In this document: in pieces, positions 34,747-64,000 of the stretch
How positions within the stretch are numbered: position 1 is the first letter of the stretch
Layout of the letters: every line of letters starts with the position of its first letter
NCBI RefSeq assembly: GCF_000255115.2
Contig: NC_018068.1
Span: forward strand, 310,001 to 374,000
Source: Desulfosporosinus acidiphilus SJ4
GTDB taxonomy: Bacteria; Bacillota; Desulfitobacteriia; Desulfitobacteriales; Desulfitobacteriaceae
Length of the DNA: 64,000 nucleotides
Direction: 5' to 3'
Notes under the pieces: model-generated
Told to the model about the DNA's origin: nothing
Seen by the model: the letters and a program-made list of their open reading frames with translations, nothing else
The model's database searches: none
Made by a program: the position numbers and the translations under genes

Positions 34747-34804
34747 TTGACAAAATGGATGTTTTGGCCTACAATGCCGATATACCCTTGTGGGGTATAT
34801 CGGC
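34747..34804 (+). promoter_or_regulatory. SigmaA promoter with CstR/CsoR-like operator for the rhodanese gene
   Basis: TTGACA (34,747) -17 bases- TACAAT (34,770-34,775). Immediately after it comes a perfect 12-bp inverted repeat GCCGATATACCC-TTGTG-GGGTATATCGGC (34,776-34,804). Its core TACCC-N5-GGGTA is the site type bound by CsoR/CstR-family repressors, which include persulfide sensors that control rhodanese genes. The same core is in the promoter at 63,780. Confidence 0.75.
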
Positions 34805-34840
34805 ATCATCATTAAAATTATGAAAAGAAAGGGATAGAGC

Positions 34841-35239
34841 ATGAACCAGACAATAACTATATCCATGATAGTTGGAGTAATAATAATCTGGCTGTACGGC
34901 AAGTACGCAGACAAAGACGTCAATAAATTACGGATCGATCCCTCCGAAGCTAAAAAGCGACTGGATACTGAAAAGGATATCATTCTTCTGGATGTCAGGA
35001 CCGAAAAGGAATATGTTGAGAACCACATTCCTCGAAGTACTTTGATTCCCTTGAACGTGCTGGCCAGAGAGGCCGGCCAAAAACTTCCAAACAAGCAAGC
35101 TGCTATTTTTGTCTATTGCAGGAGTGGCAATCGAAGCAAAGCTGCAGTAAAGATGTTATTAAAGCTTGGGTATTCTAATCTTTACAATTTGGGCGGCATA
35201 ATACGCTGGCCCTATAAGACTGTATCCGGTAAGAAGTAG
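34841..35239 (+). CDS. Membrane-anchored single-domain rhodanese
   Basis: 132 residues. One N-terminal membrane helix (residues 4-20), then a rhodanese domain: 'DIILLDVRTEKEYVENHIP' and the active-site loop 'VYCRSGNRSKAA' with the catalytic Cys. It carries sulfane sulfur as a cysteine persulfide. The operator just upstream implies induction by reactive sulfur species, via a repressor not in this window. Confidence 0.9.
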   Translation: MNQTITISMIVGVIIIWLYGKYADKDVNKLRIDPSEAKKRLDTEKDIILLDVRTEKEYVENHIPRSTLIPLNVLAREAGQKLPNKQAAIFVYCRSGNRSKAAVKMLLKLGYSNLYNLGGIIRWPYKTVSGKK

Positions 35240-62968: not shown

Positions 62969-63002
62969 TATCATTATGGTTGTCACAACAACTATAATGA
63001 TA
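62969..63002. promoter_or_regulatory. 34-bp near-perfect palindrome upstream of the DUF169 gene
   Basis: TATCATTAT-G-GTTGT-CACA-ACAAC-T-ATAATGATA: one mismatched pair around a 4-base centre. The inner GTTGTCACAACAACT matches the site at 63,450-63,465 in front of the MarR gene. Probably the MarR operator for DUF169. Confidence 0.65.
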
Positions 63003-63010
63003 AATAATAA

Positions 63011-63436
63011 CTAATCGAGATTATCATAGATTTGATTTAATAGTCTTATCAATTCTGCAGCTTTTTGTTTTTCTATTCCCATGGTAGCTTCCTCCAGTAA
63101 TTGCATAGCTTTAGGAATTAATTCCTCTCTTAATGCCCATCCGTTATTTGTCAAGAAGACCTGATAAGCTCTTTTATCAACAGGATGAGGCTTACGGACA
63201 ATTAAATCTTTCATTTGTAACTTTTCAAGAATGCGATTAGTATTTGGTTTATCTTTAAAGATGATATCTGCCAACTCTTTAGGGGTAAGACCTTCTTGTG
63301 CCCATAAACAGTTAAGGACAGACCATTGTTCCGGCGTAACATTATAGTCATTAAATCGTTGAAATAACTTATTTTTAAGTTTTGTATTTGTCTTATTTAG
63401 GATAAACCCCAATGAATCCTCTAATTTAAATTCCAT
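63011..63436 (-). CDS. MarR-family regulator
   Basis: 141 residues: 'YNVTPEQWSVLNCLWAQEGL', 'FKDKPNTNRILEKLQMKDLI', 'PVDKRAYQVFLTNNG'. Starts at ATG 63,436 with TGAGGTGATAG upstream. Probably represses itself and the DUF169 gene. Confidence 0.92.
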   Translation of the reverse strand: MEFKLEDSLGFILNKTNTKLKNKLFQRFNDYNVTPEQWSVLNCLWAQEGLTPKELADIIFKDKPNTNRILEKLQMKDLIVRKPHPVDKRAYQVFLTNNGWALREELIPKAMQLLEEATMGIEKQKAAELIRLLNQIYDNLD

Positions 63437-63449
63437 CTGCTATCACCTC

Positions 63450-63465
63450 AGTTGTTATGACAACT
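63450..63465. promoter_or_regulatory. MarR operator in front of the marR gene
   Basis: AGTTGT-TATG-ACAACT, a 16-base palindrome, 14 bases before the ATG and overlapping a minus-strand TATAAT region. Shares GTTGT..ACAACT with 62,978-62,993. Confidence 0.65.
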
Positions 63466-63597
63466 ATATTATATACGCGTCGCAATTTTCAGTCAATACA
63501 TAAGTCAGTCTCTCCATTTATTCTCTAGTCGAGGGACTCCTACTTCTATCAGTGGGAGTGGTCCGCGTTTACTGCTTCGGTGGGAGTACTTCAGTGT

Positions 63598-63779: not shown

Positions 63780-63808
63780 TTGACCCCATTACCCTGGCGG
63801 GGTATAAT
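63780..63808 (+). promoter_or_regulatory. Promoter with TACCC-N5-GGGTA operator for the CoA-disulfide-reductase-like gene
   Basis: TTGACC (63,780) -17- TATAAT (63,803). The spacer contains TACCC-TGGCG-GGGTA (63,790-63,804), overlapping the -10. Same core as at 34,783-34,797 in front of the rhodanese gene. Confidence 0.7.
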
Positions 63809-63919: not shown

Positions 63920-64000
63920 ATGATGAAAAAGGTCCTGATCGTTGGTGGAGTAGCTGGGGGAGCCTCTGCTGCTGCACGTTTAAGAAGACTTGATGAAAAA
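63920..64000 (+). CDS. FAD-dependent pyridine nucleotide-disulfide oxidoreductase (CoA-disulfide reductase type), 3' cut by window edge
   Basis: 27 residues visible: MMKKVLIVGGVAGGASAAAR then LRRLDEK. The GGVAGG-AxAAR dinucleotide fold is typical of CoA-disulfide/persulfide reductases and NADH oxidases, many with a C-terminal rhodanese domain. GGGAGGAA precedes the ATG. The operator shared with the rhodanese gene supports a sulfur role. Confidence 0.75.
   Translation, partial: MMKKVLIVGGVAGGASAAARLRRLDEK

Follow-up and report, generated by a model that had tools for sequence, protein, structure and literature searches.

A predicted CsoR-type operator shared by thioredoxin and sulfur-transfer promoters in Desulfosporosinus

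Introduction

The type-2 operators of CsoR repressors follow the consensus ATATACCCCTNAGGGGTATAT, or TAC-N9-GTA (PMC3902906), and are known from the copper efflux genes of Streptomyces lividans (csoR/copZA) and Staphylococcus aureus (copA/copX) (PMC3902906, PMC5947656). Other members of the CsoR family govern sulfur genes. CstR acts on the cst operon of S. aureus (PMC5480029), and in Enterococcus faecalis it controls CoA-persulfide reductase and rhodaneses in a cst-like operon (CoAPR, RhdA, RhdB) (PMC9405070). YrkD of Bacillus licheniformis, which is CstR-like (~50% to S. aureus CstR), is released by sulfane sulfur and serves one gene cluster with SQR-PDO (PMC9918477). TTHA1953 of Thermus thermophilus targets Sox genes through the operator TACNNTACNNNNGTANNGTA (PMC10318464). 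From outside the family, RexT of Nostoc is a thiol-based repressor of a thioredoxin gene that belongs to the ArsR family and senses H2O2 (PMC8960804).

The locus described here shares features with each of these systems. Like the copper type-2 operators, its palindrome has a TAC-N9-GTA dyad flanking G/C tracts, a centre of ~5 nt and a position in the promoter, but its predicted targets are thioredoxin and sulfur-transfer genes instead of copper efflux genes. As in the CstR regulons, a CsoR-family repressor would be paired with CoA-persulfide reductase and rhodanese targets; unlike them, the predicted regulon is scattered and has trxA and trxB as its core, no site was found at an SQR, persulfide dioxygenase or TauE gene, and the likely regulator has a copper-type histidine. 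The combination of a CsoR-family repressor with DsrE/TusA-type sulfur genes recalls YrkD, the scattering of sulfur genes over the genome recalls TTHA1953, and the thiol-based control of thioredoxin recalls RexT. The form of the operator and the kind of regulator are already known; we came across no account, in the open-access literature searched, of a CsoR-family repressor with thioredoxin and thioredoxin reductase as core targets.

Results

Two palindromes in sulfur-linked promoters

We analyzed a 64-kb stretch of DNA, hereafter the window, to which coordinates refer unless a genome coordinate (G000:C3) is given. The sequence-only reading had placed the palindrome TACCC-TGGCG-GGGTA between TTGACC and TATAAT in one promoter, and a sister copy in a rhodanese promoter 29 kb away; both are present, at 63790-63804 and 34783-34797 respectively.

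63780..63785, plus strand: -35 element TTGACC (together with the -10 element, 11 of 12 consensus bases)
63790..63804, plus strand: predicted CsoR-type operator TACCC-TGGCG-GGGTA (TACCCTGGCGGGGTA) in the promoter of the CoA-disulfide reductase (CoADR) fusion gene
63803..63808, plus strand: -10 element TATAAT, which the operator partly covers
63920..64000, plus strand: start of the CoADR–rhodanese–TusA–DsrE2 gene (GGGAGGAATTC-ATG and domains), which continues beyond the window (complete in L013)
34747..34752, plus strand: -35 element TTGACA of the rhodanese promoter, read from sequence
34770..34775, plus strand: -10 element TACAAT of the rhodanese promoter, read from sequence
34775..34805, plus strand: predicted rhodanese operator, a perfect inverted repeat with 13-bp arms, TGCCGATATACCC-ttgtg-GGGTATATCGGCA
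34783-34797, plus strand: core of the rhodanese operator, TACCC-TTGTG-GGGTA
34841..35239, plus strand: membrane-anchored rhodanese gene, 132 aa (PF00581)

In the CoADR promoter, TTGACC and TATAAT are separated by a 17-nt spacer, which the palindrome fills before running two bases into the -10 element. The rhodanese promoter reads TTGACA-17-TACAAT, and its palindrome begins on the last base of the -10 element. Both sites, TAC-CCTGGCGGG-GTA at CoADR and TAC-CCTTGTGGG-GTA at rhodanese, have 9 bp between the half-sites with G/C tracts inside, and they overlap or abut the promoter of the gene concerned, as type-2 operators do. We regard the palindrome as very probably a site bound by a CsoR-family repressor.

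The gene behind the first palindrome had been labeled CoA-disulfide-reductase-like, rightly so, since the full gene encodes an 821-823 aa protein in which CoA-disulfide reductase is fused to rhodanese, TusA and DsrE2. The CoADR flavoprotein domain with the FANCGLPYY cysteine and the C-terminal rhodanese domain place the product among the persulfide reductases of the CoAPR / CDR-Rhd type, beyond whose pattern it carries the TusA and DsrE2 domains. Its match to TIGR03385 (E-value 7.8e-159, 529 bits) lies below the equivalog cut-off of 578.8 bits, and its nearest named relatives are from Desulfosporosinus (95% to D. acididurans). Close by in the window (63011-63496 and ~62970-63000), a divergent MarR gene is served by a separate TTGACT-17-TATAAT promoter; TTGT...ACAA repeats, close to where the gene begins and ahead of the neighboring minus-strand gene, may be MarR operators.

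Location and conservation, not number, distinguish the motif

The genome (4.99 Mb) contains 8 exact TACCC-N5-GGGTA sites, compared with 9 for a reversed control pattern, and the window contains 3 matches at <=1 mismatch against 1.05 expected, with 3 reached in 7 of 100 shuffles. By count the motif is therefore not enriched genome-wide and not significant in the window alone, and we discarded enrichment as proof of it. Random density was also what the sequence-only reading had named as evidence against the motif; the raw count bears this out, so that the case is carried by location and conservation, both of which support function. A single motif site of the 8 falls within an ORF, compared with 7 of 9 control sites (one-sided Fisher p ~0.012, computed by hand). 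That site, C3:1470962, falls in a group II intron ORF and was taken as chance; it is the one exception to a tighter form, TACCC-N4-GGGGTA, common to the other 7. The exact site at G000:C3:2090931-2090945 (L005/L048) is non-coding and lies beside phage-like genes, with no clear target. At one mismatch, the genome list consists mostly of rRNA repeats and coding sites; only the promoter of a second CoADR paralog stood out.

The promoters with exact sites belong to a CsoR-family regulator with trxA, trxB, the rhodanese, the CoADR fusion, an operon of FmdB-type zinc ribbon, ferredoxin and DUF302 genes, and a DUF1638 gene.

G000:C3:3611205-3611483, minus strand: trxA-linked CsoR-family regulator, 93 aa (PF02583), in an apparent operon with trxA
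G000:C3:1705268-1705924: DUF1638 gene (L289; orthologs L290-L296), with the operator inside its promoter

These sites at csoR-trxA, trxB, rhodanese, the CoADR fusion and other redox or sulfur genes support the earlier proposal of a small sulfur regulon sharing one operator, with a different membership from that expected. A scan with TACCC-N5-GGGTA had been predicted to hit DsrE, TauE, persulfide dioxygenase or the regulator itself: a CsoR-family regulator was recovered, DsrE appeared, with TusA, as a domain within the CoADR fusion, and no TauE, SQR or persulfide dioxygenase gene was found as a target in the genome scan. The thioredoxin targets had not been foreseen.

It is these thioredoxin genes that are the best conserved targets. 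The csoR-trxA site, TACCCCCTTAGGGTA, is invariant in all 21 Desulfosporosinus genomes, and in all 7 sister-family genomes the corresponding position carries TACCC-N5/6-GGGTA. Both arms of the trxB site are exact in 14/14 genus genomes, with a variable spacer. The DUF1638 orthologs retain an exact site in 7 of 8 cases, mostly between the -35 and -10 elements as at CoADR; for the zinc ribbon–ferredoxin–DUF302 operon the site persists in 5 of the 6 close orthologs; the rhodanese core is exact in 4 of 9. The tighter form TACCC-N4-GGGGTA occurs four times in genome G014, always in predicted promoters (trxB, rhodanese, the DUF302 operon and csoR), twice in G007 (csoR and trxB), and five times in G011, at csoR, trxB and three more sites in promoter position. 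The extra G011 sites (L314, L317, L323) precede a ferredoxin gene, a 77-aa gene and a gene for a Tat-exported Fe-S-like protein. Among the points against the regulon are the exact sites in the intron ORF and beside phage-like genes, and the G013 genome: in its 94%-complete assembly, which keeps the trxB, DUF302 and DUF1638 sites, no close homolog of the regulator was found. On the strength of conservation at trxB, csoR-trxA, DUF1638 and other targets we reject chance as the origin of the motif, and by place and conservation, not by count, TACCC-N5-GGGTA looks functional.

The CoADR site is the least conserved and least secure member of the regulon because of drift in its left arm: orthologs with 85-89% identity have lost this arm (TAACC, TGGCC) and retain the G-tract and GTATAAT. 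Retention of TTGACCCC and GGGGTATAAT but not of both arms in orthologous promoters, together with the background density of the motif, would fit a reading of the CoADR copy as an unused chance palindrome arising from a G/C-rich promoter spacer, with the motif a true operator elsewhere. We think this improbable, given that the site is exact in two of the three nearest species (L160, L161) and has one mismatch in the third (L162), that the second CoADR paralog also bears a near-exact site (one mismatch, kept in three genomes), and that the DUF1638 promoters share the layout.

Placement of the sites also bears on whether they work in DNA or RNA. At CoADR and DUF1638 they are set between the -35 and -10 elements; in the promoters of csoR-trxA, trxB, rhodanese and the DUF302 operon they follow closely behind the -10 element. 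The rhodanese copy, whose 13-bp arms would sit right where the transcript begins, could suggest that the palindromes are RNA hairpins, serving as attenuators or transcript ends and not as repressor sites. This has next to no probability: no T-run follows the palindromes, and at trxB only the TACCC/GGGTA letters are kept amid diverging flanks (mean pairwise identity 38% over the 14 genus genomes). The attenuator reading in particular is rejected because the CoADR and DUF1638 sites lie upstream of the transcription start and so are not in the RNA.

The trxA-linked regulator among four CsoR-family proteins

The genome encodes four CsoR-family proteins. The one linked to trxA has its operator between its own -10 element and ribosome-binding site, and it belongs to the family by a PF02583 match above cut-off and the conserved helix-2 cysteine. 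Of solved structures it is closest to CsoRs, and its nearest relatives in the PDB and in the tree are copper CsoRs. It holds the C-H-C ligands of Cu(I) (C38, H63 and C67, in the pattern Y-C...H-x3-C). In CstR the copper-ligand histidine is replaced; this protein keeps H63-S-R-G-C67, and because of the retained copper-type histidine we do not file it as a CstR.

Could the same operator and regulator then answer to Cu(I), forming a second copper regulon whose thioredoxin and sulfur-transfer enzymes mend copper-damaged thiols? The ligands and the copper CsoR relatives speak for it, and we allow it a minor share of the probability. Against it, no copper efflux or transport gene is found among the exact sites, so the control of copper efflux that marks a copper-sensing CsoR is absent from this set. 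Two other paralogs (L010 and L011) adjoin copper ATPases and were dismissed as carriers of the motif, no TACCC-GGGTA site being present there; one of them has a different promoter element. In L010 (~1330-1350), the promoter of the copper-ATPase csoR bears ATA-GGGGGG-TAT in place of the thioredoxin-regulon operator. Moreover, a response to sulfane sulfur is reported for a Streptomyces CsoR with the same residues, that of S. coelicolor (as cited in PMC9918477).

The fourth paralog is CstR-like.

G000:C3:3423187-3423429, minus strand: L012, CstR-like CsoR paralog

L012 clusters with S. pneumoniae CstR (support 0.84) and its gene lies ~16 kb from the DUF302 operon, which leaves a small chance that L012 binds these sites, alone or along with the trxA-linked regulator. 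We disfavor it as the binder: no TACCC-GGGTA site stands in front of its gene, whereas the site of the trxA-linked paralog is invariant. The tree groups the trxA-linked regulator with trxA-linked homologs from across the phylum, although it is small and several of its branches are weakly supported. In a phylum sample of 25 evaluated csoR homolog loci, a thioredoxin gene lies within ~1.5 kb downstream in 13, and an operator with <=1 mismatch is present at 14.

A different regulator gene at CoADR fusions outside Desulfosporosinus

In Clostridia and Paenibacillus, 51 of 80 CoADR fusion loci (L058-L129) have an ArsR-type gene with conserved cysteines directly upstream, as called by sequence pattern, not by family search. 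The fusions of Clostridium, Paenibacillus and others have this ArsR-type gene instead of a convincing TACCC-GGGTA site; among the Desulfosporosinus loci examined, the ArsR-type gene occurs at none. Because it is absent here and common outside the genus, the comparison suggests a switch of regulator at the CoADR fusion in Desulfosporosinus.

Discussion

Taken together, we consider it probable that an autoregulated CsoR-family repressor, a paralog of the copper CsoRs and CstR and most likely the trxA-linked protein, controls thioredoxin and sulfur-transfer genes via a type-2 operator. What speaks for its binding is the conserved site at its own gene. The bound repressor would cover the CoADR promoter between the -35 and -10 elements and block transcription, and at the csoR-trxA, trxB, rhodanese and ferredoxin-DUF302 promoters it would cover the transcription start region. 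Modification of the C38/C67 pair, most likely by persulfide or polysulfide (sulfane sulfur), would make it leave the DNA. Its departure would allow synthesis of thioredoxin, thioredoxin reductase, rhodanese and the CoADR–Rhd–TusA–DsrE2 enzyme, which may reduce sulfane sulfur or hand it on and replenish the thiol pool.

The absence of copper genes from the exact sites leads us to favor persulfide or thiol stress as the inducer. Persulfide is most likely; since the regulator keeps the copper-type Y-C...H-x3-C and not the CstR pattern, Cu(I) is possible, as is disulfide stress. Copper-type residues do not settle the matter, in view of the sulfane sulfur response of S. coelicolor CsoR and the induction of the B. 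subtilis CsoR regulon by allicin and diallyl tetrasulfane (PMC6943732). Transcripts of trxA (of which trxA is unstated) were high both with and without oxygen in metagenome-assembled genomes of Desulfosporosinus (PMC11451228), and oxygen is accordingly not favored.

There may be an even chance of a wider significance: that a distinct, phylum-wide, thioredoxin-adjacent lineage of CsoR-family repressors acts as the principal thiol/persulfide switch in many anaerobic Firmicutes, and that in Desulfosporosinus it captured trxB, rhodanese, the CoADR fusions and two families of unknown function, DUF1638 and DUF302, taking the place of the ArsR-type regulator found ahead of the CoADR fusion elsewhere in the Firmicutes. 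The regulon itself, if true, would give a first functional lead for DUF1638 and the DUF302-ferredoxin operon, and an explicit sulfur-thiol regulon for sulfate reducers, which live in high sulfide.
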